From Neptunomonas japonica JAMM 1380 (GTDB lineage Bacteria > Pseudomonadota > Gammaproteobacteria > Pseudomonadales > Balneatricaceae), in the NCBI RefSeq assembly GCF_016592555.1, contig NZ_AP014546.1, positions 434,001-498,000 of the forward strand: a stretch of 64,000 nt of DNA, read 5' to 3'. This document shows, one piece after another, positions 12,844 through 30,939 of this stretch. The notes beneath the pieces were generated by a model. The model ran no database searches and had not been told where the DNA came from. It worked only from the letters and a program-made list of their open reading frames with translations. Positions within the stretch are counted from its first letter, which is position 1; every line of letters begins with the position of its first letter. Position numbers and translations under genes: made by a program.

Positions 12844-13458
12844 GTGACTATCGAGTATGTAGCTGATTCCAAACTGCCAATGCCATGGGGCACCTTTACT
12901 ATGGTGGGCTTTGAGGATACAGAAACCAGTAAAGAGCATATCGCTATGGTTTTTGGTGACGTCTCCGGTGATGAGCCTGTATTGGCGCGAGTGCATTCAG
13001 AGTGCCTAACAGGTGACGCGTTATTTAGCTTGCGTTGTGATTGTGGTTTTCAGCTGCAAGAGGCATTAAAGCGGATCGCTGAAAATGGCAGCGGTATTCT
13101 TTTATACTTGCGCCAAGAAGGCCGCGGTATTGGTTTGCTTAATAAAATTAAGGCATACAATCTTCAAGATCAAGGTGCCGATACCGTTGAAGCAAACGAG
13201 CGTCTCGGCTTTGCTGCCGACCTTCGTAATTACAGCATGTGTGAACCAATGCTCGAGCACTTGGGGATTAAGTCTGTTAGGTTAATGACAAATAATCCTC
13301 GTAAAGTAAAAGCATTAGAAACATATGGCGTTACAGTATCTGAACGAGTGCCGTTACAGGTTGGGAAAAACCGTCATAATGAAGAGTACCTCGCTACTAA
13401 AATGGGAAAGATGGGTCATATGATGACTGAACACCATTTTGTGGATGACGAAAGTTAA
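12844..13458 (+). CDS. ribA: GTP cyclohydrolase II
   Basis: First committed step of riboflavin synthesis: hydrolysis of GTP to 2,5-diamino-6-ribosylamino-pyrimidinone phosphate, formate and pyrophosphate. Its 204 residues have zinc ligands C54, C65 and C67 in [18 protein letters not shown], and RQEGRGIGL and [10 protein letters not shown] motifs. The start is GTG with GAGGA seven bases upstream; an overlapping ATG four bases earlier is out of frame. The gene stands alone, away from the rib operon, and supplies the activity missing from the RibBX C-terminal domain. It converges on the minus-strand GGDEF/EAL gene with only 25 bases between. Confidence 0.97.
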
Positions 13459-13483: not shown

Positions 13484-16400
13484 TTATATGACGGGCTTTC
13501 GTATAGGAGCGTGATTAAGCACACCCGAAAGAGCAGAGTTCTCAGCGGCATTGTCGCGACTCCCAGACTCCCAAACTCTTTTTCGTATATCGGTCGGTTT
13601 TCTGAGAAGAGTAGTAGCTTGTTCACGTGAAATGGGTCTGCTGAACAGATAGCCTTGAATTTCATCACATTTCAAATTTTGCAGTACGTTCAACTGTTCT
13701 TCGGTTTCTACTCCCTCAGCAATTACATGCAGTCCTAGACTATGTGCCATCGCAATGATTGCGCTTATGATTGCGGTATCGTGTGTATGCGTTGGGAAGT
13801 CTCGTAGAAAAGATCGGTCAATCTTTACGATATCAATTGGAAAGCGCTTTAGGTAACTCAGAGAAGAGTAGCCAGTGCCAAAGTCATCCAATGAGACACG
13901 TAGCCCCGCATTACTGAGACCATCAATTATAGAGACAGCAGTATCGAGGTTTTGTATTAATGCTGATTCGGTGATTTCTATAGTTATTGATGCAGGCGCT
14001 ACACCTGATTGCTCAACAATATCTATGACCAAATTAGCTAATTCAGATTTGCGTAGTTGAACGGTCGAGAAATTTACTGCCATGGATAAATGCTCGTGCC
14101 CACTTGATTGCCACGCTTTTAATTGTCTGCAGGCGGTTTTTAGTACCCAATTACCAATTTCATCAATAAGGCCAGCATTCTCAGCGATAGGTATGAAATT
14201 GTCTGGAGTGACTAGTCCAAGTTCTGGGTGGCGCCAGCGTATTAGTGCTTCAAAACTAGAAATTCTACCGGTGCTCATGTCGACCACTGGTTGGTATTCA
14301 AGAAAGAGCTCATCGCGTTCAACGGCGCGATGAAGTTGTCCTTCCATGCGTAATTGTCTTTTTGAACGCAGGCTCATCTCTTTATTGAAGTATAAGCACA
14401 CGTCTCTTCCGGGTGCAGATTTAGCTTCACGTAATGCTGCCGCTGCATTTGCTAATAGGATATCAGGGTCATCACTATCATTAGGGTAAATACTGGCACC
14501 GATACGAACATCAAGTAATACTTCAGTACTTTCGATTTGGATTGGTTCGTTCATAGAAGCAAACATACGTTGGATAATCCACGTAGTGGATTCATCACTT
14601 TGCATATCCGTTAGTAGTACGACAAATTCACCGCTACTAATACGCGAAACGCTAATGCCAATGTTTGATGAGCCATCAATAGCGACGGTGTCTGTAGAAC
14701 GAAGTGTTTTATTCAAGCGGCCTGCGACCAGTTTGATTAATTTCTCTGCACTGAGGTCTCCCAGAGTATTTCTAATTACTTGTAATGTATCAATATCAAT
14801 AAATAGCACAGCTATTTTAGTATTGCAGCGGCGGCTACGCTCTACATTCTGTTTTATCCGGTCAACTAAAACGATGCGGTTGGGAAGGCCTGTAGCTTCG
14901 TCAGTTGAGGCTACACCGTGGGTACTTTGGGCGCGAATTAATGCTTCAAGTTCTGTTATGCGATGTTGTAGTCGTTGCTCTGTTTCGCGTTCAATCTGTG
15001 TATCGTTTATTAACTCGTGAGTATCGATTGAGGGGAGTGTTACAGAATCATCTACATTACTCATGGCATCGGTGTTACTTGCTTTTGACCAGCGAGTGAC
15101 TCGGTTACGACCAGAATTTTTAGATTGATAAAGCGCTTTATCAGCTAAATCTATCATGGCTCCAGGTGTTGATGTTCCTCCAAAATCGCTTGAAACTCCA
15201 AAGCTTGCAGTAAAACGAATAGCACTGGTGAATTCATCAATTTTTCCTTCGTGAACAGCTACTCGCATGCGTTCTGCAATAATGGCAGCTTGTTGTTCAT
15301 CTACATTTGGAAGTACGATGCAAAATTCTTCACCGCCATAGCGGCCTACGAGGTCTTCAGTACGTGCTGTTTCAACTAATATCCTAGCAAGAAGTTTGAT
15401 GACTTTATCGCCAGTTGAATGTCCGAATCTATCATTGATTGACTTGAAGTGGTCAATATCTACCATAATACAACTAATTGATGTCCCTTCATCAGCGGCT
15501 TCTGCTAGTAAGGTTGTAAACCCATCAAAGAGCGAACGTCGGTTAAGAGATCCCGTTAATGGGTCTCGGGTAGCTAATACTTGCAGTTCTCTATTTTGGC
15601 GAGTTATTTCTCTTTGGCTGTGTTGAATGCGGTCTAGTGCACGCTTTAAATCAGTATTTTTGTGCTCCAGTTCTGTTACGTCATCGAAGGTGGCGACGAT
15701 GCCGCGAACATCTCCAGCAGGTGTTTGTATCGGTGCTATATTCACAGCAAAGCTAAGTTGTTCTTTAAGAGCCGTTGTAAGCTTTAGCTGAGACGAAGAG
15801 GGGGCTTCAATACCATCTAAAGCAAGTTGCCAGGGCAAGATTAATGGGCCGCCTTCGTCTTTAGGTGATGCGGCGCTCCAATCTAGATCTGAAAGGTATT
15901 TACCTATTAAAGTATTGGAGGATTGACCAATTTTTTCTTCAAATGCTGTGTTTAAAAACACAATACGCCCTTTAGTATCCAGCATGGCCAGCCCTTCGGC
16001 TAATACATCTAGAGCTGCGCGTACACGATCGGGGACAACCGCACTTGGGTCTAATTCATTGAGTGCGCGTTTGAGAAAAAGCCAGTAAGCGATAAAACCT
16101 GATAAAGAAATAAATAAAATGACAGTTACAATGGAGCCACCATTGAAAAGCTCAAAGTCATTGGCTCCGAGTGGTTTGAAGCTGATTTCTAGCGCTCCCC
16201 AGCGTCCAGATTCATTATGAATGGGCACTTGAACATGAGTGGCTGTTGATACATTTTTATCAGTGGGCTTCCAATAGCTTATATGATCTCCAGCACTTGA
16301 TATTAAGCGACCATCAGCCGTTCTTAAACCGGCAGAAAGGATGCTCTGATTACGAGCTTGTAAAGAGTGGATTGTGTCAGTGACAGAGTCCATGTGGCCT

Positions 16401-16579
16401 TGTGCAATACTTGACGAAACTTGCACGGCAAGTGATTCGGAAATGGTTTTTCGTGCCGTAAACTCAGCATGTTTTTGGTCGGGAATAACACCCAGCAAGT
16501 CTCCTATTAAGAGTAAGCTAATCGTTAATAAGATCAAGCCAATAGAAAGGCGAAAAACAGGTGAAACAGCTGGTCTCAT
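13484..16579 (-). CDS. Membrane-bound cyclic-di-GMP protein: PAS, GGDEF, degenerate GGDEF, EAL
   Basis: 1,031 residues. TM1 is at about 10-30, a periplasmic sensor of about 115 residues follows, TM2 is at 148-170, and a PAS domain at about 185-305. The first GGDEF domain (335-500) is active-looking, with GGEEF at 415-419 and an I-site RTED (406-409) five residues before it. A second GGDEF-like domain (555-730) has SSGEF at 648-652 and is probably inactive. An EAL domain (745-990) has EALIRWRHP (EAL at 777-779), EITES, DDFGTGYSS, KID and EGVETEEQ, so it has the residues of an active phosphodiesterase. It probably both makes and breaks cyclic di-GMP. It starts 36 bases after the giant adhesin gene on the same strand, which suggests it controls that protein. 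Confidence 0.92.
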   Translation of the reverse strand: MRPAVSPVFRLSIGLILLTISLLLIGDLLGVIPDQKHAEFTARKTISESLAVQVSSSIAQGHMDSVTDTIHSLQARNQSILSAGLRTADGRLISSAGDHISYWKPTDKNVSTATHVQVPIHNESGRWGALEISFKPLGANDFELFNGGSIVTVILFISLSGFIAYWLFLKRALNELDPSAVVPDRVRAALDVLAEGLAMLDTKGRIVFLNTAFEEKIGQSSNTLIGKYLSDLDWSAASPKDEGGPLILPWQLALDGIEAPSSSQLKLTTALKEQLSFAVNIAPIQTPAGDVRGIVATFDDVTELEHKNTDLKRALDRIQHSQREITRQNRELQVLATRDPLTGSLNRRSLFDGFTTLLAEAADEGTSISCIMVDIDHFKSINDRFGHSTGDKVIKLLARILVETARTEDLVGRYGGEEFCIVLPNVDEQQAAIIAERMRVAVHEGKIDEFTSAIRFTASFGVSSDFGGTSTPGAMIDLADKALYQSKNSGRNRVTRWSKASNTDAMSNVDDSVTLPSIDTHELINDTQIERETEQRLQHRITELEALIRAQSTHGVASTDEATGLPNRIVLVDRIKQNVERSRRCNTKIAVLFIDIDTLQVIRNTLGDLSAEKLIKLVAGRLNKTLRSTDTVAIDGSSNIGISVSRISSGEFVVLLTDMQSDESTTWIIQRMFASMNEPIQIESTEVLLDVRIGASIYPNDSDDPDILLANAAAALREAKSAPGRDVCLYFNKEMSLRSKRQLRMEGQLHRAVERDELFLEYQPVVDMSTGRISSFEALIRWRHPELGLVTPDNFIPIAENAGLIDEIGNWVLKTACRQLKAWQSSGHEHLSMAVNFSTVQLRKSELANLVIDIVEQSGVAPASITIEITESALIQNLDTAVSIIDGLSNAGLRVSLDDFGTGYSSLSYLKRFPIDIVKIDRSFLRDFPTHTHDTAIISAIIAMAHSLGLHVIAEGVETEEQLNVLQNLKCDEIQGYLFSRPISREQATTLLRKPTDIRKRVWESGSRDNAAENSALSGVLNHAPIRKPVI

Positions 16580-16615
16580 TGTTTTTTCAACTTGTTATTA
16601 GATAGGTGTATGGCC

Positions 16616-19600
16616 TTAACGCTCAAATAGCTCATCAACTTTATTCTCTGTTTTTTCATCTTGAATATTGTCTAAAATTTGCTCAGTCTGAAGTGGTTCT
16701 TTTTGATCTTTTTCATTGGCCGCTAAAATAGGCATAGGGTCTAAATGCCTCCAAGCGGGCATGGCCGCTAAAAGGCTGGCCATTAATGATCCTGCTCTAA
16801 GTGCCCAGCTAACAAAACCGGCAGTCAAGGTTATGCTTACACCCGTGATGGCTTCTGCGCTTAACTCTAGTTCTTTTTCTTTCGCCATTTCTGATTCATC
16901 AAGATCTTGAAGCATTTTATCTAGATCATCTAAGAACTCGAGGCTCTTAGTACTTGAGTCACTAGGCTCTACTGTAGCAATGCCATCATCTTTCCAGAAT
17001 GAAGCAAGTTCTTGAAGGAATGTCTGTGTTATTTCAACACTAGGCTTAGTGTCTTCTGTTGTTTTAATTGTAGACGGTCTTTCTGACAAAACGCTTAGAA
17101 AAAGGTCATTGGGTGTGAGAGGTGTTGGTGTAGCCGTAGCCGTTATAAACGCAGGGGTTAATGAGCTACTGTCGTCGAAAATAGTTTCTGTCGCGTTTTC
17201 TGTATCATTAGTTTCATTCGTGTCGTTGGTTTCTTCTATTTCTGAGGTATTTTCATCATCTGGCTCTTCTGTCGGTGGCGTTGTTGGCTGCTCTGGTTCA
17301 GGTGTAATAGGAATGATTACGCTAGGGGGGCTATCAATACCGTTAATTGTGATAGCGATATTATGCGTAGTACCGTCGGCGCTCATGACTGTAAAAGTAT
17401 CAAGTAAAGATTGAGATCCACTTAATACTTGGATAGTTGCTTGAGAGTTATCAGCTGAATAACTCCATGCTCCAGTAGTGTTGATGCTTATGATGCCATA
17501 GTTTCCAGTAATGCTAGCAGGTAGGAAACTTGATTGTCCTGGGTCTACGTCGGTAATCGAGAGTGTGCCGGATGTACTTAAGAGTAAATTAACATCAAGG
17601 TTTTTTGTAACGGTGCCAGTATTGTCACCGTCAATAACTGCAGGATCGTTGATATTAGACAGCGTGATGCTGATGGTCTGCGCAGTGCTACCGCCTGCAT
17701 CATCGGTGACGGTGACCTCAAAACTGTCGCTCCCAAACCAGTTCGCATCGCTGGGTGTATACGTCCACGCGCCACTGCTCGCATCAATGCTTGGCGTGCC
17801 GTTGCTGGCCGCTGTGCCGCTGATGCTGAAGTAACTGCCATCGGTTAAGCCATCGGCATCGGTGGCGGTGAGGGTGCCGGTGACCACCACGCCTTCGGCG
17901 GCGGAGCCTGATGTGTTGCCGCCAATGCTGGCCGGATCATCGGTGTTGGTGATCGTGATAGACACCGCTTGGGTGGTTGTGCCGCCTGCATCATCGGTGA
18001 CGGTGACCTCAAAACTGTCGCTCCCAAACCAGTTCGCATCGCTGGGTGTATACGTCCACGCGCCACTGCTCGCATCAATGCTTGGCGTGCCGTTGCTGGC
18101 CGCTGTGCCGCTGATGCTGAAGTAACTGCCATCGGTTAAGCCATCGGCATCGCTGGCGGTGAGGGTGCCGGTGACCACCACGCCTTCGGCGGCGGAGCCT
18201 GATGTGTTGCCGCCAATCGTGGCCGGATCATCGGTGTTGGTGATCGTGATGGACACCGCTTGGGTGGTTGTGCCGCCTGCATCATCGGTGACGGTGACCT
18301 CAAAACTGTCGCTCCCAAACCAGTTCGCATCGCTGGGTGTATACGTCCACGCGCCACTGCTCGCATCAATGCTTGGCGTGCCGTTGCTGGCCGCTGTGCC
18401 GCTGATGCTGAAGTAACTGCCATCGGTTAAGCCATCGGCATCGCTGGCGGTGAGGGTCCCGGTGACCACCACGCCTTCGGCGGCGGAGCCTGATGTGTTG
18501 CCGCCAATCGTGGCCGGATCATTCTGCGGTGTCACATCAATCGTAATTGTATTGGTCGAAGGGTCAGTATCTACGCCACTGTTAGCCGTGCCACCGTCAT
18601 CCTGAACCTGGAATGTAAAGGCGTCGTAGCTTGAACCATTGCCGTTAAGCGCTGGCTTGAATTTGAGTTTTCCAGCGTTGATGTCTGTTATGGCTATTGA
18701 GTCGAGGTTAATTAGCGTTTCTCCTCCATCGATAATGCCATCCCCGTTACTATCTAGAAAAAGATCTCCGTTTATCGGTGCGCTCGTGATAATTATATTA
18801 AGTAAATTATTCGCAGGGGAATCACTGCTGTCGGTAAAACCAAAATCACTGGCAGCAAAAACAAAGTCAGTATCTTCCAGCGTCGCTACTGTTTTGTTTG
18901 TGCCGGCCGGCGCATCGTTAACGTCACTGACGTTGATCGTCACGGTGATGTCTGACGACAGCTGGCCGTCATTATCTTCAACGGTGTAGGTGAAGCTATC
19001 GGCCCCGACGAAGTTCAGGTTACCGGTATAAGAAAACGTCCCGTCGCTGTTGTTGGTTAAGCTACCGTTGCTGGGGCCAACGGTCACCGTGGTAGTACTC
19101 AGCACCACCGTGCCATCCACATCGGCAACATGGCTACTGATATCAATGGCGGTGGCGGTCTCTTCCAGAGCGGCCACGACCAGCGTGGTGCCGGTCGGCG
19201 CATCGTTAATTCCGGTGATAGAAATTGACGCCGTATTAAGCGCAAAACTAAAAGCACCGGATGTATCGAAAGTGCTGGTATCTACTTTGGTTCCAGTGGT
19301 ACCTGAAGTTTGATCCCAAGCCGAGAAAGTAATAAATGCAATATCAGAATTTTTCTGATCAGGCACAAATCGTAAGCTATCAGAATCACGCAACAATAAG
19401 GATTGGTAAAATGAGACAGTGTCCACATCCAGCCAGCCTCCACCGATATTGTATTGCCAAGTACCATTGCTGTTGTCTATTGAAGTAATAGCAATGCCTT
19501 CTAGTGCGCCTGCGTCCGCATCGGTAATGCTATTGCCGCCATTACTGGCGATAATTTCAGAAACAAGATTACCGCCGTTGTTTACGTTATCTTCAGTAAT

Positions 19601-22600
19601 GGCTGTCAAGAACATGCCAGCGACAGTTGGCATTTCTGGCGCATCATTGACAGCAGTTACCACTGTGCTGATAGAGACTAAACTACTGCTTATCGATGAA
19701 GAGCCTCCTGGGCTTGAAGCATCCGCAGTGGCTGCTGTAGCACCAGAGGTAAAGCCGCCAGAGTAGGTATTATCAAGTGCGCGAAGTGATAGAACATCGG
19801 GCGAGCCGTTGTAATCGGTGCTGGGGACAAAACGGATACTGGTTGATGTATCAAGTGCTAAAGAATTGGGGTAGGCAATATTTCCGATGTTATACCAGTT
19901 TGAACCCGTATCAGTAGAGTACTGCCATGTGCCTTGTGAGGCGTTTTCAGGGTTGTTAGTGATCAAGACCCCAGACATGCTAGAACCTGCATCAACATCG
20001 TTGAATGACCCAGAAAATAGATTGCTAATGGTTTCACCGGCAGGGTTCGTTAAGTCTTCAGTGATACCCGGTAAGGACCCGCCGCCAACAGTCGGTGCGT
20101 TATTGGCAGCTGTCACTGTGATAGCAACATTGTTGCTGACCTCGGTGTTATCAGCTGCTAGATTGAAAATTTCGTCTGAGGAAAGGGCGCGAGTGTAAAT
20201 TCTTGCATCGTCTATTAGACCGTTGAAGTCAAAGTTAGCGTCACCGTCGTTGGGGTGTGCTCCGATACGCGACTCTCCAAACCAACCGGTATAAGTGATT
20301 GATGATGTCAGCGTGGCTGAGCCAACAACTGCTCCATCAATATATAACTTTTGAGTGTTCGATACGTCATCGAAGCTAAACGCTATATGATGCCAATTCC
20401 CATCTGACAGACTGATGTTACTTTCAATGAATTGGTATGAGCTGCCGTCGTAAAAAAATCCGGTAACCCCTTTTGAGCCGTCATCGACTCTAAGAGCGAT
20501 ATCGCCTCCTAGCGTGATAACCTCCCCACCATTGATGTCGAAGCTGGAGTAGTTGACCCAGGCGGCTAGAGTCACATTCGCTGGATCACCAAACATTGAA
20601 GCTATCTGAACATAGTCGCGGTCGCCGTCCAGGCTTAATACTTCCCCGCGGGTTGCGTCGGTTACGCTTGACGCATTGTTTATAAGTACTCCATTCTGTG
20701 AAACGCCAACGCTGTCGTCGATGGCATTACCGGCATCGAAGCTGTAATAACCGGTCATGTCAGCGCCCAAGGATGTCGTCATCTGTAGAGAGACTGCTCC
20801 ACTAAAGCTGGTGTCGGGTGTGAAGGTCATCCCTTCTAATGCGGCGTTTAGATCGGATTCACTTCCATGAACTGTCATAAATGAGCTAGCGTTGGCCCCG
20901 CCAAGAATGGATAATCCCGTCGTCTGTGACAAGGTAAGTATTCCGTCATTTACGGAGATGAAAACCTGAAGGCGAGTATCCGTTGTACCATTGGTATCGC
21001 TTACCGAGACGGCATTACCATTGGTGGCGTTAAACGTTAGTGTCTGATTTTCGCCAATGCTTTGTGCGCCTGGTAATGTCTGGGTAAATACGCTCGGAGA
21101 AGTCGTAATGACGTTCATTGAGAATTCAGACGTTGCACCGTAATTTCCACTTCCCAGATCCACTGTGGCTGTTGAGCTGACTCGATCATTTGCAGCAATT
21201 GATACACCAAACACTGCATTAATTGAAGCGTCACCATTTATATCTGTTGTAACAGAAATGTAGCCAAGGTAAGTTTCGCCTTCGCCGTGCCCGCTAGGGT
21301 CTTCTGTACCAACAGGACTGCTAAAAAATTCAATACGATAAGTAGTATTTGGGTTTGAGTTTATCTGTCCTGTAATGGTTGTATTTACCCCAGAAACACT
21401 AGCAGCAAAGAGCACAGGGAAGTTTTGTAAGCTGTTTGCACCAGTATCTCCATCTCCGTCGACAAGGTCATTCGCAGTTACGCCGTCATTGCCTAAATCA
21501 ATCCCTTGTTGGGTGTTTGAATGGATAGAATTTCCAAGGATTGTATTATCGGTAGCCGCATTATCTGAAAGTAAGATGCCATCGCCTGCGTTGAAAGCAA
21601 TAATATTACCTGCGCCTGCTTCTGTTCCGCCTATCGTATGGTTAGATTCAGTAGTGATGCGTATGCCGTTAGTGCCATTACTAATAGCGGTTGTACTGTC
21701 TGAGCCAACGCCAATATAGTTGCCTTGGATGACTGTTCCTGTTGTTCCGGTACCTGGGCTGGCTCCATCGCTGATAATGATGCCGTCGCTGTTGTTACCC
21801 GAAATAACATTGCGTGCTGCTGATGTTGTACCACCAATGATGGTGTTATCTGCACCACTTTCTATTTGTATCCCTCTATCGCTGTTACCTAAATCAAGTA
21901 GGCCGGTTACATCCGTACCGATATAGTTGCCTTTAATGATGGTTCCATCGGCATTCTGAATGTAAATACCATCAGAGTTACCACTAATGATATTACGCGC
22001 CGCTACCGTGGTTCCGCCAATGGTATTTGCGTCTGCATTACTACTAATCTCAATACCAGCAGCAGTGTTGCCTACACTAATGGTGCCGGTTATATCGGTG
22101 CCAATGAAGTTGCCTTGTACGGTGTTATTTGTTGTGCCAGTACCCGTAATGAAAATACCATTATCATTGTTGCCTGATATGATATTTCGCTCGTTTGTAG
22201 TGGTTCCACCAATTACATTATTGGTGGAACCACTTTCTAGGCGTATACCATCTATGCTGTTACCTATATCTGTAAGGCCGTCAGAGCCGATGCCGATATA
22301 ATTGCCTGAAATAGTATTGTTATCGGAGCCGTATGAAACGATACCGTTTTGGTTACCACCTATGATGTTCCCTGAATTAGCTACTGTCCCTCCAATTGTT
22401 GTGGTTTGTGTGGTGCCTGAAAGCTCAATACCCGCAGACCCATTACCAATACTACCCAGCCCGCTCGCGTTCACACCAATGTAGTTTCCCGCGATGACGG
22501 TGCCAGTTGCAGTACTTTGGAGTTGAATGCCATCATCGTTATTGCCTGCAATAACGTTGCGATCAGATGCCGTAGTGCCACCAATAATATTATTACTGCC

Positions 22601-25276
22601 GCTGATACGAATACCGTCATAGGTGCTGCCCAAGTCAGCAATACCGTCCGTGCCTATATAGTTCCCTGCGATCAAGTTGTTGCTGGAGTCTATCTTTATA
22701 CCGTCATTTCCAGCATTGAGTATTTGTAAGCCACGAATAGTACTGCCATCGCTTCCTTCTTGAAGCCAAAGCCCATTGACCACACCTGCCGAACTACCAT
22801 CAATTGCTATCAGCGGTGCTCCGCTAAAGTCGGTTTCGGTTGTACCATTGATGATTACTGCTTCAGTGATAGCGGGGAGAGCTGAGGTTAATGAAATCGT
22901 ATGAATGCCTGATCCAGCAATATTAAAGTTTATGGTATCTGTGCCGGAGGTATTGTTAGCCGCGATAATTGCTTCACGCAAAGAGATAGCAGCATCACCT
23001 CCTTTATTTAGGTTTAGCCAGGCAGTATCTTGGCTGGCATTGCCGTTAGTAATGCCGCTATCATTATCATTTGTTGCCGTGTCGACAGTGAGGGATGTAA
23101 CAGCGGACGTGACCGTAATGCTGTAATCCTCAACTTCTCCAAACCCTATTATCTCGTTCGATGCCGGCGCATCTTGATATTTAACACTGGTGCGCATGAC
23201 TGTTGTGCCTGCTACTGCATCAGTAGGGGCGAGAATGGATAATGTATAAGGCCCGTTAGCCATCACATTGGTTGCTAGCGTATAGCTTTCATTTATGTCG
23301 AGAAAGTCGCCGTCTTGGTTCCAGTCTATCCAAGTATTAATGTATTCATCACTATAAGCATTAATAGTGATGGATAGGTCATTAGATGTACCTGCTGCTA
23401 CACTAGCAAACTGAGCAGTGTAGTCGCCGTACCCCCCGCCATCTTGTCCTGTCGTGTTATTGATACCTGCAAAGGTAACATTAGTGATCCATTCAAAAGT
23501 GTTATTCGCTCCATATGATGTTGGGTAGGTAGAATCTGTGACCATGACATCGATTGCTTGAGTATCTGATCCATCAATGCCATCACTTGCTTGGACGATT
23601 ACCTTGTAAACATTATCTAGGTTAGTGTCAGTTGGGCTTGAAAACTCCGGAGCTGATGCAAATGTGAGCACCCCCGTAGTAGGGTTGATTGAAAACTTTA
23701 AAGCATCGTCTCCACCCGAAATGCTATAAGTCATAGTGCCGCTATTGTTATCAATAGCCGATACTGTTGCTACACTTGTAGTGCCATCTATGACAGAAAT
23801 ATTTGCTGTATCATTTCCGCCACTACTAATAATAACGGGTATATTTCCAACATTATTATAGAGCTCGGTAATGTCTGAACTGGTTAGTGCTCGATTGTAT
23901 AAACGTACTTCATCAAGAAGGCCGTCATAATCACTGCTGACGCCATCAGTAGCTCCCATTCGTAGAGCTACGGTATTATCAACACTACCGATTAGTGCAT
24001 TTGTTGCTGAATCAGCGAGGGTATTATCAATATATAATGAGAAGTCATTGCCGCTTCGCGTCCCGACTACATGGTGCCACTCTCCGTCGAATAAACCTCC
24101 TGCTGTAAGGGTTTGGAGTTGCGCTCCTGATGTGATTAGGAAATTTACTTCCCCCGAGCCTGAGCCATAAAGTATATAGCCATCTGCGCCAATAGAGTCA
24201 CCTACAAGCCTAGCTGCTGTCCCTAATGATGTTGAGTTAAACCAGAAGCCAACAGAAAAGTCGCCACTTCCAAAGTCTGTAGCGACAGCATCGGGAGCGT
24301 CTACATAATCGAAGTCGCCGCTAAAATTTAACGCCCCAGAACCGACAATGCCTGTTGAGTAAACTGGAGACCCAATTAAGGAGGCGTTATTGGCTGATGC
24401 GCTACTATCAAAAGCAGTAGAGCCACTGCCCTCGTCAAAGGTGTAATGTGCGACAAGGCTGCTAGTGATATCTAGCGTTACTTGCCAGTCAGCTTGTGTA
24501 TATGAGGGTATAACTATATTGGTTTCGATATTCCCCGTTGAATATTCAAGTTCCCAGTCTCCGCCAAGTTCTGCATGGCCTGTTAGATCATCAGATGCGG
24601 CAATGTCTGCTAGTGTAAGTTCGGATAGTTGCTCTATTAATGTTTGGCCATTGCCAGAAGATACTAAGTTGCAACCGTAAATCAAAATGTCGGCTTGAGT
24701 ATTAAGTGATTCTCCCCACTGCCGAAGTTGGTTTTGATATTCTGGCAGGCTGTTATTACTAAGTTGGGCGCTACCTAGGTCAATCGTCCCATCACTACTA
24801 TGAGAGAGAATATGAATAGCATCTAGGTTGGTGTAGTTCGCAAGTACTTCTGTAATGTGCTCAACGCCATTGATATGAGAGTTAAGCACCAACACGCTTA
24901 TGTTACGAGCATCTTCAGTTTGTCGCTTTATGTCTTCTAGTAACCGTTCGTAATCAGGTACGTTTGAATTTATGAAGACGATTTCGTGACGAATACTTGT
25001 TTCTTGGGTTGCTGTTATTGGTAAAAGCTTTTCGGGCTCGAGCACTGAGTGGTTAGTGCTTTCACTTTCTAGTTGAGATGGTTGTACATTAATACGTGCG
25101 ACTTCTGCTTCTGCATCCCGCAAAATGTTGGAAATAGCATCATCAATTTCTGCAATACTGGTATTTGTTAAAACATCAAGGCCAGGCACATCTGCAGAAA
25201 GCAAAATGCGGGGTTCAAGCCCTTCGATAACGGGTGCTTTATATCCTTGCTTACGTTTGAAAGCAGACTTATTCAT
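16616..25276 (-). CDS. Giant LEPR-XLL / DUF4347 surface protein with LamG, beta-helix and VCBS-like repeats
   Basis: About 2,886 residues if it starts at the ATG 25276 (MNKSAFKRKQ). An ATG at 25291 and a TTG at 25312 are also open, and none has a good ribosome-binding site. The order is: basic N-terminus with LEPRILLSAD (residues 20-29), DUF4347 (about 95-268), LamG-like domain (270-475), cadherin-like stretch (490-580), GEVED domain (585-720, ends GFGEVEDYSI), right-handed beta-helix with six GNYIG-type modules (765-1260), a second LamG domain (1505-1715), several cadherin/Ig-like domains joined by NDAP linkers, three nearly identical 97-residue VCBS-like repeats (about 2250-2545), a Thr/Glu/Asp-rich linker, and a hydrophobic segment (TAGFVSWALRAGSLMASLLA) before a charged tail. 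No RTX nonapeptides and no Sec signal peptide are seen. It is probably a cell-surface adhesin exported by the products of the three upstream genes. Confidence 0.9.
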   Translation of the reverse strand: MNKSAFKRKQGYKAPVIEGLEPRILLSADVPGLDVLTNTSIAEIDDAISNILRDAEAEVARINVQPSQLESESTNHSVLEPEKLLPITATQETSIRHEIVFINSNVPDYERLLEDIKRQTEDARNISVLVLNSHINGVEHITEVLANYTNLDAIHILSHSSDGTIDLGSAQLSNNSLPEYQNQLRQWGESLNTQADILIYGCNLVSSGNGQTLIEQLSELTLADIAASDDLTGHAELGGDWELEYSTGNIETNIVIPSYTQADWQVTLDITSSLVAHYTFDEGSGSTAFDSSASANNASLIGSPVYSTGIVGSGALNFSGDFDYVDAPDAVATDFGSGDFSVGFWFNSTSLGTAARLVGDSIGADGYILYGSGSGEVNFLITSGAQLQTLTAGGLFDGEWHHVVGTRSGNDFSLYIDNTLADSATNALIGSVDNTVALRMGATDGVSSDYDGLLDEVRLYNRALTSSDITELYNNVGNIPVIISSGGNDTANISVIDGTTSVATVSAIDNNSGTMTYSISGGDDALKFSINPTTGVLTFASAPEFSSPTDTNLDNVYKVIVQASDGIDGSDTQAIDVMVTDSTYPTSYGANNTFEWITNVTFAGINNTTGQDGGGYGDYTAQFASVAAGTSNDLSITINAYSDEYINTWIDWNQDGDFLDINESYTLATNVMANGPYTLSILAPTDAVAGTTVMRTSVKYQDAPASNEIIGFGEVEDYSITVTSAVTSLTVDTATNDNDSGITNGNASQDTAWLNLNKGGDAAISLREAIIAANNTSGTDTINFNIAGSGIHTISLTSALPAITEAVIINGTTETDFSGAPLIAIDGSSAGVVNGLWLQEGSDGSTIRGLQILNAGNDGIKIDSSNNLIAGNYIGTDGIADLGSTYDGIRISGSNNIIGGTTASDRNVIAGNNDDGIQLQSTATGTVIAGNYIGVNASGLGSIGNGSAGIELSGTTQTTTIGGTVANSGNIIGGNQNGIVSYGSDNNTISGNYIGIGSDGLTDIGNSIDGIRLESGSTNNVIGGTTTNERNIISGNNDNGIFITGTGTTNNTVQGNFIGTDITGTISVGNTAAGIEISSNADANTIGGTTVAARNIISGNSDGIYIQNADGTIIKGNYIGTDVTGLLDLGNSDRGIQIESGADNTIIGGTTSAARNVISGNNSDGIIISDGASPGTGTTGTVIQGNYIGVGSDSTTAISNGTNGIRITTESNHTIGGTEAGAGNIIAFNAGDGILLSDNAATDNTILGNSIHSNTQQGIDLGNDGVTANDLVDGDGDTGANSLQNFPVLFAASVSGVNTTITGQINSNPNTTYRIEFFSSPVGTEDPSGHGEGETYLGYISVTTDINGDASINAVFGVSIAANDRVSSTATVDLGSGNYGATSEFSMNVITTSPSVFTQTLPGAQSIGENQTLTFNATNGNAVSVSDTNGTTDTRLQVFISVNDGILTLSQTTGLSILGGANASSFMTVHGSESDLNAALEGMTFTPDTSFSGAVSLQMTTSLGADMTGYYSFDAGNAIDDSVGVSQNGVLINNASSVTDATRGEVLSLDGDRDYVQIASMFGDPANVTLAAWVNYSSFDINGGEVITLGGDIALRVDDGSKGVTGFFYDGSSYQFIESNISLSDGNWHHIAFSFDDVSNTQKLYIDGAVVGSATLTSSITYTGWFGESRIGAHPNDGDANFDFNGLIDDARIYTRALSSDEIFNLAADNTEVSNNVAITVTAANNAPTVGGGSLPGITEDLTNPAGETISNLFSGSFNDVDAGSSMSGVLITNNPENASQGTWQYSTDTGSNWYNIGNIAYPNSLALDTSTSIRFVPSTDYNGSPDVLSLRALDNTYSGGFTSGATAATADASSPGGSSSISSSLVSISTVVTAVNDAPEMPTVAGMFLTAITEDNVNNGGNLVSEIIASNGGNSITDADAGALEGIAITSIDNSNGTWQYNIGGGWLDVDTVSFYQSLLLRDSDSLRFVPDQKNSDIAFITFSAWDQTSGTTGTKVDTSTFDTSGAFSFALNTASISITGINDAPTGTTLVVAALEETATAIDISSHVADVDGTVVLSTTTVTVGPSNGSLTNNSDGTFSYTGNLNFVGADSFTYTVEDNDGQLSSDITVTINVSDVNDAPAGTNKTVATLEDTDFVFAASDFGFTDSSDSPANNLLNIIITSAPINGDLFLDSNGDGIIDGGETLINLDSIAITDINAGKLKFKPALNGNGSSYDAFTFQVQDDGGTANSGVDTDPSTNTITIDVTPQNDPATIGGNTSGSAAEGVVVTGTLTASDADGLTDGSYFSISGTAASNGTPSIDASSGAWTYTPSDANWFGSDSFEVTVTDDAGGTTTQAVSITITNTDDPATIGGNTSGSAAEGVVVTGTLTASDADGLTDGSYFSISGTAASNGTPSIDASSGAWTYTPSDANWFGSDSFEVTVTDDAGGTTTQAVSITITNTDDPASIGGNTSGSAAEGVVVTGTLTATDADGLTDGSYFSISGTAASNGTPSIDASSGAWTYTPSDANWFGSDSFEVTVTDDAGGSTAQTISITLSNINDPAVIDGDNTGTVTKNLDVNLLLSTSGTLSITDVDPGQSSFLPASITGNYGIISINTTGAWSYSADNSQATIQVLSGSQSLLDTFTVMSADGTTHNIAITINGIDSPPSVIIPITPEPEQPTTPPTEEPDDENTSEIEETNDTNETNDTENATETIFDDSSSLTPAFITATATPTPLTPNDLFLSVLSERPSTIKTTEDTKPSVEITQTFLQELASFWKDDGIATVEPSDSSTKSLEFLDDLDKMLQDLDESEMAKEKELELSAEAITGVSITLTAGFVSWALRAGSLMASLLAAMPAWRHLDPMPILAANEKDQKEPLQTEQILDNIQDEKTENKVDELFER
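17648..18520 (-). repeat. Three tandem 291-bp near-identical repeats inside the adhesin gene
   Basis: Period exactly 291 bp (97 codons). Equivalent landmarks (GGCCGGATC on the plus strand) fall at 17930, 18221 and 18512. The copies differ at only a few bases except for the divergent edge of the last copy. Their GC is visibly higher than in the flanking adhesin sequence. Each encodes one VCBS/cadherin-like domain (GTLTASDADGLTDGSYFSI ... VTVTDDAGG). Confidence 0.95.
21500..22740 (-). repeat. Beta-helix coding repeats (six GNYIG-type modules)
   Basis: Degenerate modules of roughly 50-60 codons each carry GN(Y/F)IG, (D/I)GI and IIGGTT followed by RN(I/V)I(S/A)GN. The pattern fits coils of a right-handed parallel beta-helix. 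Divergence between modules is much greater than in the 291-bp repeats, so these are old. Confidence 0.8.
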
Positions 25277-25386
25277 ATGAAATAGAGACATCACAATTAG
25301 TAGAAAAAACAAATGAATATTTTTCTGTACACAATTAAAAAATAGACCAGTTTGGCTGATTCAACAAATATAAAATGTTGAGGTTT

Positions 25387-26877: not shown

Positions 26878-26985
26878 GCACTGCCTTCGGTTGAGCGTTA
26901 AACTGATTCTTTATCAGTATGTTATTAAGTATCGTATGGTTTGTGGATTAATCCAGCTTATCGGTTAGTTCATTAGTATTGGCTC

Positions 26986-29145
26986 TTATATTGATAGGCG
27001 ACTTAATAAAAGTTGTTGAGTGCTGCGCGTCCATTGTTTCCATAAAGGTTCTGATCCGTGGTTTAGGCGAATGTAAACGCGGCCTCCAATGCCTGCTGTT
27101 TTTGTTCCTTCAGGTAGACTGAGGTCTAGCTGGAATATCTTTTGGGTTGCTGTTAAGCCGCTTTGGTCATTGGTATCGACAGTAATATAACCGCCTCCCA
27201 GTGCTCCTAACGCCGCGCTAGGTAGCTGTTTACTGCCGGCTGGCACTTCTCGTAGTAATGTTGCTTGTATAGGTGTACCAAGTTGGTCTGCTAGCATTAC
27301 TTGGATGGAAATAGGTTTGTCACGTAACAAGCCTGCGCTTTTTTGAGTGATAGCCGCACGTATGGTTGGTTTTTTATCTTGTATGACATAACCCAGTATT
27401 TCACCGTGGCGTATAAATTTTCCGCGTAGCTCATGTGGATTGTGCAAAATAAAGCGACCATCAAGTGGACTACGCACTTGAAGGTTATTAATACGACTAG
27501 CGATTTCTTTTAGTTCAGCTGTCACCGCATTGATGTCATCAGTTACCATCGCTCCGCGGATTCGGCTACGTTGTTGTGCCGTAAACTGTTGTGTCTGTAG
27601 CTCGGATAAGCGTGCTTCTAGTGCTTTTTGCTGAGTAAGTAAGGTCTCGTCTTCTAATAATAAAAGCAGTTCACCTGATGAAACTTGACTGTTTGATGAA
27701 ACTAACACTTCTTTTACAAAGCTGTCAGATGTACTGTGGATGTTGCCTTTCTCATTGAAAGTTATAACCCCTTGCGCTTGTGTTACCAGAGGCATAGGTA
27801 CTATTAATGAACCAAAACATAATACTAGAATGGCTCCTAAAGCAACAAAACCTCGAATACGACGAGCTTCTAATCGCTGGCTAGTGGCTAAAAATAACAA
27901 GGTGAATATAAGCGGTTTGAGTAGCTGCATGAAAAGAGCCCAGCATGCCAAAATGACCCCAACGATAAGGAACTCTGTCGATAGGTATAAAGCAATGCTG
28001 ACTAAAACAGTTAAACGATAGATAGGTGACGCAAGCCCGTAAAAAGCAAACCATGCGTGCTCCCCAGCGGCGGTTACAGGTGATCGAGTGTCAGATAGTC
28101 CTAGAATGTGTTTCTGCATGAGGTATAGGTAAAACCGGGCCGAACGTGAAGCAAGATTAGGGATTTCAATTTGATCTTCTAAGATGTAATAACCATCAAA
28201 TTTTAGTAAAGGATTGCCATTGAAGAGTAGGGTAGACACGCTGCCAAGGATAGCGATATTTAGTGCAGCATCATGAATGGTGCCGGGTTCTGTTAGTAAC
28301 CAAATGAATAACCCTAATGCCGCCAGTAGCATTTCTACAAAAATGCCGGCAGCCCCAACCATCACTCTTCTTTTCTTGTCACGAAAAGCTGATGCGGCGG
28401 ATGCGTTTACATAAGGAACGGGCATGAAAACGAGTAAGGTGATGCCTGTTTCGTGCACCTCTCCCCCCCAGGCTTTAACAGCCATGCCATGTCCTAACTC
28501 ATGAAGTATTTTGATCGCAGGGAATAAAATCCAGAATGACACAACTTCTGAGGTACTTAACGACTTTGCACCGATAGCGGCTGTAATTAGCTGGGCGTTA
28601 GCTACCGCTAAAATACTAGCCAGTAACATAATTCCAATCCATACATATAAGCCTGCACGGGAAAAAATTATGCGAGATAAAGGTGCTAAATGAGTCAGCA
28701 TCTGGTCGGGATCAAAGATAGGGATGCGCAACGATAATGGATTATTGAGGGCTTTTTTTCGTGAATGCTGGGCTTGAGTGTAACGGTTAATAATGTCTTG
28801 GGCGCTGTGCGGAAGCCCATCGCGTAGTACTTCTGCGTTGTGTAATAGCGCTAAAATTTGCATTATGTCTTCAGGTTTTAGCGCTTGGTCTTGATGTTGA
28901 GGTGTGTTGGCTAAATGCAATATTTCTTGGATGCTGAAGTCGCCATTTAAGCGTCCTATGACCTGAAAGGCAGATGCATTGAAACGATTAAAGTTACCTG
29001 ATGACTCATCATGCAAAATATACCAACGTTCGCCTCGGTAATATTGAACACGAATGCGTACATCTTTTCGTAAGCGTGGCTTCAGCTCTGCTATATGCTC
29101 CCAGAGTGATGGTGCTGGCTGGTCGAATGTAGGGTTAGCAGTCAT
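26986..29145 (-). CDS. Polytopic PqqD-like / M50 metalloprotease / HlyD fusion
   Basis: 719 residues in three parts. Residues 25-115 resemble the PqqD winged-helix fold, which binds leader peptides in RiPP systems (WYILHDESSGNFNRFNASAF...LLHNAEVL). Residues 160-450 are multi-spanning with the M50 zinc motif HELGHG at 215-220 and a second metal motif NPLLKFDGYYIL with D317. Residues 450-719 are a lipoyl/HlyD adaptor (GVITFNEKGNIHSTSDSFVKEVLV, coiled coil, NNLQVRSPLDGRFIL). Related fusions are annotated as peptide zinc metalloproteases with HlyD domains. It starts three bases after the GAF-HlyD gene and probably forms a complex with it. Processing or export of the adhesin is the likely role, by context. 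Confidence 0.88.
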   Translation of the reverse strand: MTANPTFDQPAPSLWEHIAELKPRLRKDVRIRVQYYRGERWYILHDESSGNFNRFNASAFQVIGRLNGDFSIQEILHLANTPQHQDQALKPEDIMQILALLHNAEVLRDGLPHSAQDIINRYTQAQHSRKKALNNPLSLRIPIFDPDQMLTHLAPLSRIIFSRAGLYVWIGIMLLASILAVANAQLITAAIGAKSLSTSEVVSFWILFPAIKILHELGHGMAVKAWGGEVHETGITLLVFMPVPYVNASAASAFRDKKRRVMVGAAGIFVEMLLAALGLFIWLLTEPGTIHDAALNIAILGSVSTLLFNGNPLLKFDGYYILEDQIEIPNLASRSARFYLYLMQKHILGLSDTRSPVTAAGEHAWFAFYGLASPIYRLTVLVSIALYLSTEFLIVGVILACWALFMQLLKPLIFTLLFLATSQRLEARRIRGFVALGAILVLCFGSLIVPMPLVTQAQGVITFNEKGNIHSTSDSFVKEVLVSSNSQVSSGELLLLLEDETLLTQQKALEARLSELQTQQFTAQQRSRIRGAMVTDDINAVTAELKEIASRINNLQVRSPLDGRFILHNPHELRGKFIRHGEILGYVIQDKKPTIRAAITQKSAGLLRDKPISIQVMLADQLGTPIQATLLREVPAGSKQLPSAALGALGGGYITVDTNDQSGLTATQKIFQLDLSLPEGTKTAGIGGRVYIRLNHGSEPLWKQWTRSTQQLLLSRLSI

Positions 29146-29148
29146 CTG

Positions 29149-30939
29149 TTAAAAACCTAGAGACCACGCCCATAAGCGCAGTCTATCTTTAAGTGATTTA
29201 GTCCAGACGCTTAATATACTAGCGCGGCCTGTAATGATTTTTGCAATGCCTTGCATTCCTGGTCGCATACCGGGAGGGATGTCAGAAATTTCTGCTTCAA
29301 CGTGAAAGTTATTGCTGCCGTGTGCAACAGAGGCAATAGGTAAGATACGTGAGATTTTTAATTGGATGAATTGCTCTGGTAGTCCTGTTAATCGTAGTTT
29401 TCCTAGCTGTTTTGAAGAGAGCGAGGCAATGTCGTGTTCATCAACTTGTAAAGCTACTTTGTAGCTATCTATTGGCACTATTTCAAATAAAAGCTGCCCT
29501 CGTTCAATGGGGGCTCCTAAAGCTCTATTCCAGTCGCCACTGACGAGTAGGCCATCAAAAGGGGCTAGTAACTGTGTATGTTGTAATTGCTTATTAACTT
29601 GATTTAGTTGAGCATCTGTTTGTGCAATACGGGCACTTAGCACGCTTCCTTGAGCCCTGTTTCGAGTGGCAAGAGCTTCTTGGTACTCTTTGGCATGTTT
29701 TGCGCGTTCAGTGAGCCATTTTTCTTGCTCAAGCAGTAAGTCTCGATTGTCCAATGTAGCGATAATTTGTCCTTGTGCAACACTGTCGCCCGCTCTAGCA
29801 TTTGCCGTGGCAATATAACTGCTAAAAGGCGCAACAATGGATTGTTGGGTCGCTCCTTCAATCGTTGCTTTAGCCGAAACAATTTGTTCCGTTTGGATGA
29901 GCGTTAGTAGTATCGCAACAATAATGCTGACTATTATTGTTGCTTTGAAACGAAGATGACTAATGCTACCTAGCTTCTTGATATTTGCTTCTTTGCTTTT
30001 CCAAGAGCGTTGATCGTTATGCTGCCTGAGGTTAATTATGGGGGCTATATGCTCATTAATAGCGGTTATCTGATCAAAAAAAGTGTTGTCGAAACTGCTA
30101 TTCTTTTCATTGAATAGAGTTAGCACGCCTATTTGTGTTTCACCGTATAATAATGGGGCAGAAAAAACGCAACCATTACTGTCGTTGAGCAGCTGTTGAG
30201 TATGAATGTGCGCTGATCCAGCTCCATTGTTGGTCTTGTTGGCTATAAATATGGGCTTGCTATATTCAATGCATTCCTCCATTGCGAACTCTATTTGGCT
30301 GATTCGATTGATGCGTCGATCAAATTGCAATTGATGAGATATGCTAATGATTTGAACCTGTAGGCCTTTTTTTAAACCTAGAATGACTCTTGAGCAATCA
30401 AAGTGATCAGCTAATAAATTACAGAAGTTATACCCGGAAACGGCAAGTGGTTCACTACGTGAAAACAGTTCAACAGAGCTTAAGGCAAGTGTCGAGGTGT
30501 GGTGACGGTCATTGTAGGCTTGCTCAAGCGCTTTTTCTGCCCAGACAGTGCCCCATTGCAGTAATTGTAAAACAGCTTGGCGCTGTTGGTCTGATCTGAT
30601 TTCTAGTGCAAGCACCACGGCGCCAATGATTCTGTCTTTTTGTAGTAGGGGGTAGGCAACATAATCAAACACCTTGGCGTCGTCACTTACTTCTTTTTGA
30701 GCAATACCTGCTCCACCTTTAATGGCTTTTAAAGCAATGATTTGTTGAGTTGATGATACTTGGCTAGTAGAAGGCCATATTGCTAATGGTGTTGGGTGGT
30801 TGATAGCATTTTTTTCAGATAAATACACCGCGCCGCTATTTACATCAGAAATCATCCTGCACTGCCAGTCTAACCAGTGATCAACTTCATGAGGAGTTTT
30901 AGGCGGTGTAGGTGTGCCACTATTGTTTGAATTAGGCAT
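29149..30939 (-). CDS. GAF-domain HlyD-type membrane fusion protein
   Basis: 596 residues. The cytoplasmic N-terminal half (about 20-315) looks like two GAF-type domains (DWQCRMISDVNSGAVYL...; ILGLKKGLQVQIISISHQLQ...GCVFSAPLLYGETQIGVLTLF). A single membrane helix lies near 332-350 (IIVSIIVAILLTLI). The periplasmic half is a HlyD adaptor: barrel-sandwich halves SYIATANARAGDSVAQGQIIATLD and LLAPFDGLLVSGDW, a coiled coil between them, and a beta-barrel ending GMRPGMQGIAKI. It is the first gene of the five-gene unit. Fusion of a ligand-sensing domain to an export adaptor suggests export controlled by a cytoplasmic signal; the ligand is unknown. The start has no strong ribosome-binding site. Confidence 0.85.
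   Translation of the reverse strand: MPNSNNSGTPTPPKTPHEVDHWLDWQCRMISDVNSGAVYLSEKNAINHPTPLAIWPSTSQVSSTQQIIALKAIKGGAGIAQKEVSDDAKVFDYVAYPLLQKDRIIGAVVLALEIRSDQQRQAVLQLLQWGTVWAEKALEQAYNDRHHTSTLALSSVELFSRSEPLAVSGYNFCNLLADHFDCSRVILGLKKGLQVQIISISHQLQFDRRINRISQIEFAMEECIEYSKPIFIANKTNNGAGSAHIHTQQLLNDSNGCVFSAPLLYGETQIGVLTLFNEKNSSFDNTFFDQITAINEHIAPIINLRQHNDQRSWKSKEANIKKLGSISHLRFKATIIVSIIVAILLTLIQTEQIVSAKATIEGATQQSIVAPFSSYIATANARAGDSVAQGQIIATLDNRDLLLEQEKWLTERAKHAKEYQEALATRNRAQGSVLSARIAQTDAQLNQVNKQLQHTQLLAPFDGLLVSGDWNRALGAPIERGQLLFEIVPIDSYKVALQVDEHDIASLSSKQLGKLRLTGLPEQFIQLKISRILPIASVAHGSNNFHVEAEISDIPPGMRPGMQGIAKIITGRASILSVWTKSLKDRLRLWAWSLGF

Follow-up and report, generated by a model that had tools for sequence, protein, structure and literature searches.

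We analysed a 64,000-nucleotide (nt) stretch of Neptunomonas japonica JAMM 1380 DNA (the window below; contig NZ_AP014546.1, positions 434,001 to 498,000). The source genome is a single contig of 4.1 Mb and is 99.9% complete. Five genes, all on the minus strand, span positions 13484-30939 of the window, with no comparable opposing gene between them. In transcription order they encode GAF-HlyD, a PqqD-like-M50-HlyD fusion (M50-HlyD below), HlyD-SPOR, a giant protein with a LEPR-XLL start, a DUF4347 domain and a hydrophobic C-terminal tail (C-tail), and a PAS-GGDEF-GGDEF-EAL sensor (Table 1). We consider it likely that this unit encodes the giant together with machinery that exports and tethers it, by the mechanism proposed below.

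The intergenic gaps are 3, 108, 110 and 36 nt if the giant starts at the ATG at 25276; the gene could alternatively start with a TTG at 25312. A preliminary description of this DNA had given the same strand, gaps and lack of opposing genes, all of which we reproduced. Its domain make-up of the five products was upheld by Pfam and NCBIfam, with PqqD below threshold in the window protein itself. It also rightly stated that the unit contains no ATP-binding cassette (ABC) exporter, TolC, LapD or LapG: none is found among the five genes with these libraries, though such proteins exist elsewhere in the genome. No resistance-nodulation-division (RND), major facilitator superfamily (MFS) or ABC pump is encoded by the five genes either.

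Table 1. Features of the five-gene unit (window coordinates; aa, amino acids; RRE, RiPP recognition element; TM, transmembrane segment; MFP, membrane fusion protein)
Feature	Position	Strand	Basis
GAF-HlyD, 596 aa	29149..30939	-	Pfam; hydropathy; alignment A4; adjoins M50-HlyD in 74/80 loci
PqqD/RRE-like - M50 (site-2-type) metalloprotease - HlyD adaptor fusion, 719 aa	26986..29145	-	Pfam/NCBIfam; invariant motifs; model; PqqD and MFP profile matches
PqqD/RRE-like N-terminal domain, residues 14-104	28834..29106	-	Model, PDB profile matches
HELGH zinc-protease motif, residues 215-219	28489..28503	-	Sequence motif
HlyD-type periplasmic adaptor with C-terminal SPOR, 496 aa	25387..26877	-	PF16576, PF13437, PF05036
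Giant LEPR-XLL/DUF4347 repeat protein, 2886 aa from ATG	16616..25276	-	Pfam/NCBIfam
LEPR-XLL N-terminal motif EGLEPRILLSAD, residues 18-29, candidate export leader	25190..25225	-	NF012209
DUF4347 domain, caspase-like fold	24473..24982	-	Invariant His159, Cys202
Three near-identical 97-residue units (291-bp repeat)	17691..18522	-	2.9 copies, 99% matches
C-terminal hydrophobic tail, residues 2805-2850	16727..16864	-	Core R.G.L..S......P.W...DP.PIL; alignment A2
Membrane sensor TM - periplasmic - TM - PAS - GGDEF - degenerate GGDEF - EAL, 1031 aa	13484..16579	-	Pfam, hydropathy

The unit belongs to a widespread conserved cluster

We compared the 80 best-scoring of 551 confirmed M50-HlyD loci from named genomes, a set that for this reason leans towards close relatives. 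The loci span gamma-, beta- and alphaproteobacteria, Desulfobacterota and Desulfuromonas relatives and Campylobacterales, and include metagenome-assembled genomes labelled Nitrospira, Omnitrophota, Rokuibacteriota and others. GAF-HlyD lies directly 5' of M50-HlyD in 74 loci; the remaining six have the contig start no more than 316 nt away. A relative of the adaptor part of HlyD-SPOR is present in 61/80 loci, and DUF3467, a short gene, recurs in 23/80. The five-gene unit thus belongs to a widespread conserved cluster found in several phyla.

Co-occurrence was counted in 369 genomes drawn from the class, with profile cut-offs of E ≤ 1e-20 for M50-HlyD (A1), 1e-50 for GAF-HlyD (A4), 1e-5 for the C-tail (A2) and 1e-8 for DUF4347. 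For a SecA-like protein that accompanies many of the clusters, we counted matches to profile A3 at 1e-166 that reach profile position 660 or beyond, leaving out housekeeping SecA rows and one fragment (G343:C137). DUF4347 was found in 46 genomes, GAF-HlyD in 33, the C-tail in 23 and the SecA-like protein in 20. All 33 GAF-HlyD genomes also carry M50-HlyD (P-value 9.6e-33), and 34 of 39 GAF-HlyD matches lie no more than 300 nt from it. Both GAF-HlyD and M50-HlyD are present in 20/20 SecA-like genomes, with 18 of 21 SecA-like matches within 300 nt. Weaker or partial SecA-like matches stand beside M50-HlyD in three more GAF-HlyD genomes (G053, G303, G366), which brings the total to 23/33; G060, which has no GAF-HlyD match, shows a weak partial SecA match near a weak M50 match. 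The preliminary description had made its proposal depend on the giant and the adaptors occurring together in other genomes, and it withstood this comparison: M50-HlyD was found in 35 of the 46 DUF4347 genomes and in 22 of the 23 C-tail genomes (P-value 1.9e-19; the one without it, G285, has a completeness of 72%), compared with 55 of 369 in the whole sample. Only 5/25 C-tail matches and 19/53 DUF4347 matches are on the same contig as M50-HlyD and within 15 kb of it, because many genomes are fragmented. Part of the copy of the source genome reads N, which is why the DUF4347 and C-tail searches missed the window's giant; the gene is not absent. The genome-level counts are unaffected, since a second copy of the unit (described below) scores, and the window's giant is left out of the distance counts.

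The LEPR-XLL model NF012209 was applied to genomes behind 36 of the 80 loci, of which 35 were searched. These were mostly loci with the giant's start out of view, and a LEPR frame was already visible in three of them (L042, L060, L064). LEPR-XLL was found in 31/35 of these genomes versus 1/14 control genomes; this search did not find it in the genomes behind L050, L086, L030 and L080. Mapped onto the loci by coordinates only, with the same contig assumed, the LEPR frame is the giant ending directly upstream of the cluster in eight loci (L031, L046, L053, L066, L073, L074, L085, L088; 5,603-15,167 aa). In four Methylobacterium/Methylorubrum loci (L067, L078, L082, L083) the LEPR giant starts ~9-10 kb off and runs in the opposite direction, and for several other loci the matches are on other contigs or unplaceable. 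A LEPR frame of 15,371 aa lies near the cluster in a Methylorubrum genome.

Three adaptors and an intramembrane protease

The Pfam scores of M50-HlyD are below cut-off (M50, 21.3 versus 27.2 bits; HlyD, 22.0 versus 30 bits). Residues H215, E216, H219, N309, N311, P312 and D317 are invariant in all 27 aligned homologues, as are the HExxH and NxNPxxxxDG motifs that contain them. HExxH occurs in every one of the 80 loci, and 75 of them match the strict patterns of both motifs. M50-HlyD thus has the HExxH and the second, Asp-containing motif of M50/site-2 proteases and, because both are conserved, is probably an active protease. In NCBIfam it matches the daptide intramembrane metalloprotease best (141.7 bits against a cut-off of 300; residues 25-405), and the LiaK/YydH family scores 41.5 bits (cut-off 225).

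The PqqD match, sub-threshold in the window's protein, reaches threshold in a plasmid-borne homologue (28.7 bits, cut-off 23.4), and PqqD is annotated in 9 of 120 listed M50-HlyD homologues (precomputed annotation). A profile search of the PDB gave weak PqqD matches (3g2b, E 0.008; 5sxy PqqC/D, E 0.0096). In a structure model (predicted local distance difference test, pLDDT, 78.5; predicted template modelling score, pTM, 0.50) the N-terminus forms three strands and three helices and is PqqD-like by profile. Long helices follow at about residues 160-450, and then a periplasmic adaptor resembling MexA, AcrA and MacA. Homologues and fold support a PqqD/RRE-like domain, for which leader binding is predicted.

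GAF-HlyD has one hydrophobic segment by hydropathy, at about residues 323-358, so by topology a cytosolic GAF domain is expected. None of the three adaptors falls in the type I HlyD subfamily TIGR01843 (20.7, 28.8 and 40.3 bits, cut-off 208.65). With the RND adaptor model (cut-off 94.9 bits) HlyD-SPOR scores above the cut-off at 111.2, GAF-HlyD (84.2) and M50-HlyD (21.8) below it. HlyD-SPOR is therefore an adaptor of the kind found in tripartite RND efflux, and the unit has no pump to match.

The giant protein and its conserved ends

Pfam and NCBIfam assign to the giant the LEPR-XLL start (NF012209, 22.2 bits, cut-off 17), DUF4347 and Laminin_G_3, cadherin, Big_9 and tandem-95 repeats. As the preliminary description had noted, repeats-in-toxin (RTX) units are absent, with no match to PF00353 in the window's giant; by eye, RTX-like stretches appear towards the ends of some giants upstream of relatives' clusters. 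DUF4347 has a caspase-like fold with a His/Cys pair, the fold of clan CD cysteine peptidases. The same description had called the protein a giant adhesin. The giant repeat protein is confirmed; because of the caspase-like DUF4347 it is not simply an adhesin, and the adhesive role is putative. The 291-bp repeats inside its gene are a likely recombination site.

The C-tail comprises ~37 mostly hydrophobic residues with a central arginine invariant in 30/30 sequences of alignment A2. In the same 30 sequences there follow an invariant glycine, P.W, an invariant aspartate in DPLPIL and a charged end. In 20/30 the residue after the tryptophan is basic, which suits a topology with the C-terminus inside. 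Family libraries returned no NCBIfam match and one Pfam match of 0.075 (at E ≤ 0.1) for the C-tail, a previously undescribed element absent from both. Among 120 listed homologues of the giant's N-terminal 300 residues, often partial sequences, LEPR is present by a strict pattern in 90 and the C-tail by a relaxed pattern in 68. The caspase-like DUF4347 and the C-tail are additions of one subtype of LEPR-XLL giants. The C-tail marks the subtype made of giant plus sensor, and LEPR-XLL spans both subtypes. Several Marinomonas homologues (P0141, P0144, P0156 and others) are LEPRLLLDGAA giants with a non-hydrophobic C-terminus ending LMKLLAS or similar, possibly another export class.

A cut-down SecA relative in many of the clusters

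A SecA-like gene stands 3' of M50-HlyD in 60/80 loci, within 150 nt in 58. Of the 20 loci without it, the contig ends within 400 nt in five; in 14 of the remaining 15 the next gene is the HlyD adaptor. The protein is ~660 aa long and carries the SecA DEAD, preprotein cross-linking and P-loop domains in 8/8 scanned. PF07516, which we take to be the scaffold/wing/two-helix-finger part of SecA, is listed in 0/8 at E ≤ 0.001. All five SecA-like proteins aligned with the source genome's SecA stop before the scaffold, wing, two-helix finger and zinc tail. A profile search of the PDB returned SecA and SecA2 chains, natural or engineered, of 25 distinct sequences. The ATPase of the relatives' clusters is a cut-down relative of SecA: those examined lack scaffold, wing and two-helix finger. 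The source genome has an ordinary SecA only and represents a SecA-less subtype.

Clusters on five plasmids were read as well. Plasmid pMSC49a carries in one run a giant of ~8,850 aa, DUF3467, GAF-HlyD, PqqD-M50-HlyD (HEIGH present), the SecA-like protein, HlyD and TolC. In the plasmid records the SecA-like protein is named preprotein translocase subunit SecA, prepilin peptidase, DEAD/DEAH box helicase or hypothetical protein. The plasmid giants L111, L113 and L114 have LEPR by eye or pattern; L112 has none at its annotated start. On the 62-kb plasmid pRR4-35_6 (L109, L114) the cluster's giant lies outside the listed gene table, has a LEPR-like start and stays open for 9,035 codons to the record end. 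A further 2,547-codon frame opens at the record start, and the two together would fill over half of the plasmid. SapC-family genes occur in or beside two plasmid-borne clusters (L110:14233-15054, PF07277 tested; L112:1558-2355). A TolC-family gene stands directly 3' of the HlyD adaptor in L042, L060 and L107.

The sensor and a second copy of the unit

The preliminary description had included cyclic-di-GMP control in the system. The window's sensor does carry GGEEF, EAL and DDFG motifs, and its N-terminal half is common to sensors in 9/80 loci (33-41% identity). The GGDEF and EAL output is found in the window and in six of the seven relatives with a complete gene in the locus (L058 ends after GGDEF). 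A diverged second copy of the unit with the same gene order lies ~1.9 Mb away in the source genome. The output of its sensor is HisKA-HATPase-REC-Hpt, and its periplasmic and PAS half is 32% identical to that of the window. No sensor gene was found in the 14 loci with the giant directly upstream. Cyclic-di-GMP was therefore rejected as a defining feature; the conserved element of the sensor is its periplasmic/PAS half, not the output domain. We likewise rejected the unit as a LapD/LapG system: its sensor scores 182.6 bits against the LapD model (cut-off 1020) and has catalytic motifs, and LapD- and LapG-like proteins are encoded elsewhere.

In the second copy, M50-HlyD is 30% identical to the window's, and the HlyD adaptor is 33% identical and has no SPOR match. 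The GAF-HlyD equivalent is split into two overlapping open reading frames (ORFs; L006:17992-19667); the HlyD part is 36% identical to the window's and the other ORF has no Pfam match. A similar split is seen in genome G190, so this may be a natural two-gene form. The second giant, a LEPR/DUF4347 protein of 1737 aa, aligns with the window's near the ends only (residues 15-285, 34%; 1641-1731 of 1737, 32%). What the two copies conserve, therefore, is the giant's ends and the sensor's input side, not cyclic-di-GMP. Elsewhere in the genome (L007:8435-10141, ~1.6 Mb), a 568-aa protein joins an extracellular contractile injection system (eCIS) core domain (PF13699) to DUF4347 and adjoins a subtilase with P-domains.

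Surroundings of the unit

A dxs/farnesyl diphosphate synthase pair lies 435 nt upstream of the unit, and its downstream neighbour is a long ORF (12844-13458) oriented towards it. Scans gave one promoter-like site upstream (2.9 expected), 21 inside the unit (33.6 expected) and 20 terminator-like sites inside it (14.5 expected), no promoter or terminator signal beyond chance.

Proposed mechanism

We suggest that the cytosolic PqqD/RRE-like domain in M50-HlyD would recognize the LEPR-XLL leader at the giant's N-terminus. In most relatives the unfolded giant would be pushed through the inner membrane by the cluster's short SecA-like motor, and in the SecA-less subtype of the window the push would probably come from ordinary SecA. 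The giant would cross the periplasm through a conduit of GAF-HlyD, M50-HlyD and HlyD-SPOR to a TolC-type channel. The C-tail may serve as a stop-transfer anchor. With its C-terminus inside, the giant would stay in the inner membrane until cleavage of the tail by the M50 protease ended this retention. Once outside, the caspase-like DUF4347 might process neighbouring proteins or the giant itself. Export would be tuned by the GAF domain and by the periplasmic/PAS sensor, in the window copy via cyclic-di-GMP.

A bolder form of this mechanism is a new Gram-negative route in which the scaffold- and finger-less SecA-like motor feeds LEPR-XLL giants (up to ~15,000 residues) into a PqqD-M50-HlyD/GAF-HlyD membrane channel and not into SecYEG or an ABC exporter. 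The channel would dock directly on periplasmic adaptors and TolC, and the M50 site would be a gate that releases the giant by cutting the C-tail. We advance this form tentatively and think it more probably wrong than right.

Several points weigh against the unit being the giant's export and tethering machinery. The giant's surface export and adhesion are predicted, as is recognition of LEPR by the PqqD-like domain, and no secretion report for any cluster member was found in the literature covered (titles, abstract openings and selected passages from one open-access collection). The window locus lacks both the SecA-like gene and TolC; since 10/33 GAF-HlyD genomes, some of them drafts, also lack the SecA-like gene, this motor is not obligatory. 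Few clusters include a TolC-type gene: it was seen in 6/80 loci (in two as a weak match or on the opposite strand) and on 1/5 plasmids; the locus search was seeded with one protein and may undercount. DUF4347 occurs without M50-HlyD in 11/46 genomes. The C-tail was found in 0/14 giants ending within 2.5 kb upstream of GAF-HlyD, among giants of which over 1,500 residues were visible, and thus cannot be a universal signal; in L075 a tail-bearing giant lies further upstream. The hydropathy profile of the window's giant has two hydrophobic peaks, of which the C-tail is one (highest mean 1.41 over 19 residues), and with this moderate hydropathy and an internal arginine its role as a membrane-spanning anchor is uncertain. 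A Lap-type set is also encoded elsewhere in the genome, in two places (L104:5119-7830 and L105:2597-8211).

This set could itself export the giant, leaving the cluster only to process, sense or regulate it. The L105 region holds an LssB-type ABC exporter (L105:6079-8211, 974.8 bits, cut-off 693.1) with a type I HlyD (407, cut-off 208.65) and TolC (309.6, cut-off 225.15) beside it. LapD-like (417.8, cut-off 1020) and LapG-like (229.2, cut-off 320) proteins sit together at another place, both below their NCBIfam cut-offs, the latter with PF06035 above its own. However, the window's giant has no RTX match, the three adaptors all miss the type I HlyD cut-off, and on pMSC49a the adaptor/SecA-like/TolC set directly follows the giant with no ABC transporter among 18 listed features of an incomplete table. 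We regard export by this set as improbable. It is more improbable still that the HlyD proteins belong to a drug, metal or peptide efflux system and that their place next to the giant reflects chance or co-regulation. The RND adaptor score of HlyD-SPOR and the MexA-, AcrA- and MacA-like part of the M50-HlyD model would suit efflux, but the lack of a pump led us to reject an ordinary efflux cluster, and the neighbourhood with giants and a SecA-like protein motor is kept across several phyla. We give hardly any credence to maturation of the kind seen for ribosomally synthesized and post-translationally modified peptides (RiPPs), in which the PqqD-M50 protein would trim a small peptide and the giant would be a bystander. 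The daptide protease is indeed the best NCBIfam match of M50-HlyD, with LiaK/YydH weaker, and DUF3467 is one recurring short gene (ORF lists stopped at 90 aa and no search was aimed at short precursor genes). Yet M50-HlyD reaches neither curated cut-off, the cluster comes with LEPR giants, and such a system has no place for a SecA-like motor.

Relation to known systems

Giant adhesins of the LapA/BapA type are type I secreted. The cluster resembles such secretion in the supposed envelope retention and in that a repeat protein of very large size is accompanied by HlyD-type adaptors, in some clusters by a TolC-type gene and, in the window, by a cyclic-di-GMP protein. It differs in that the unit has no ABC exporter or RTX match, the candidate motor, where the cluster encodes one, is SecA-like, the adaptors carry GAF, PqqD-M50 or SPOR, and retention would be by the hydrophobic C-tail. 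SiiE is also described as a type I-secreted giant adhesin (PMC8277102). The cluster ATPase shares the DEAD, preprotein cross-linking and P-loop domains and the motifs of SecA and SecA2 (PDB 6sxh, 6t4h), but those examined end after the second nucleotide-binding domain, without the C-terminal zinc site, and the window's genome has none. M50-HlyD shares the M50 core of RiPP proteases (daptide, YydH/LiaK) but is fused to an HlyD adaptor, stands beside giants and scores below those families' cut-offs. Tce1 (PA0256, PDB 9qpe), described as a DUF4347 protein (PMC8262886) and as a type VI effector bound by Hcp3 and a putative cysteine protease (PMC13323088), is a stand-alone effector, whereas DUF4347 in the unit sits near the giant's N-terminus. 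A Vibrio LEPR-XLL giant of ~8000 aa is reported with LEPR and RTX ends and a supposed cytotoxin-like role (PMC10868602), and META1_2412 of Methylobacterium extorquens AM1 has 15,831 aa (PMC2680597); the passages on these two proteins give no export route for either. LEPR-XLL giants (NF012209) share the LEPR start of the window's giant; META1_2412, compared by size, is a candidate for this group.

In the literature covered we found no description of the cluster, and no known system named or found there joins these parts. We therefore regard the cluster as a new kind of system. The preliminary description had proposed a dedicated exporter of three adaptors and a membrane protease. The co-conserved unit of adaptors, membrane protease and giant stands, but these adaptors and the protease are not the whole set, given the SecA-like genes and occasional TolC of the relatives. 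Export of proteins of 3,000-15,000 residues to the bacterial surface is known mainly from ABC-driven type I systems and a few others. If our reading is true, giants would be exported and tethered in a new way, by a co-conserved set that combines three adaptors and an intramembrane protease with a motor of the SecA type. Several unexplained families would then gain a function at once: LEPR-XLL, DUF4347 giants, PqqD-M50-HlyD, GAF-HlyD, DUF3467 neighbours and short SecA paralogues.

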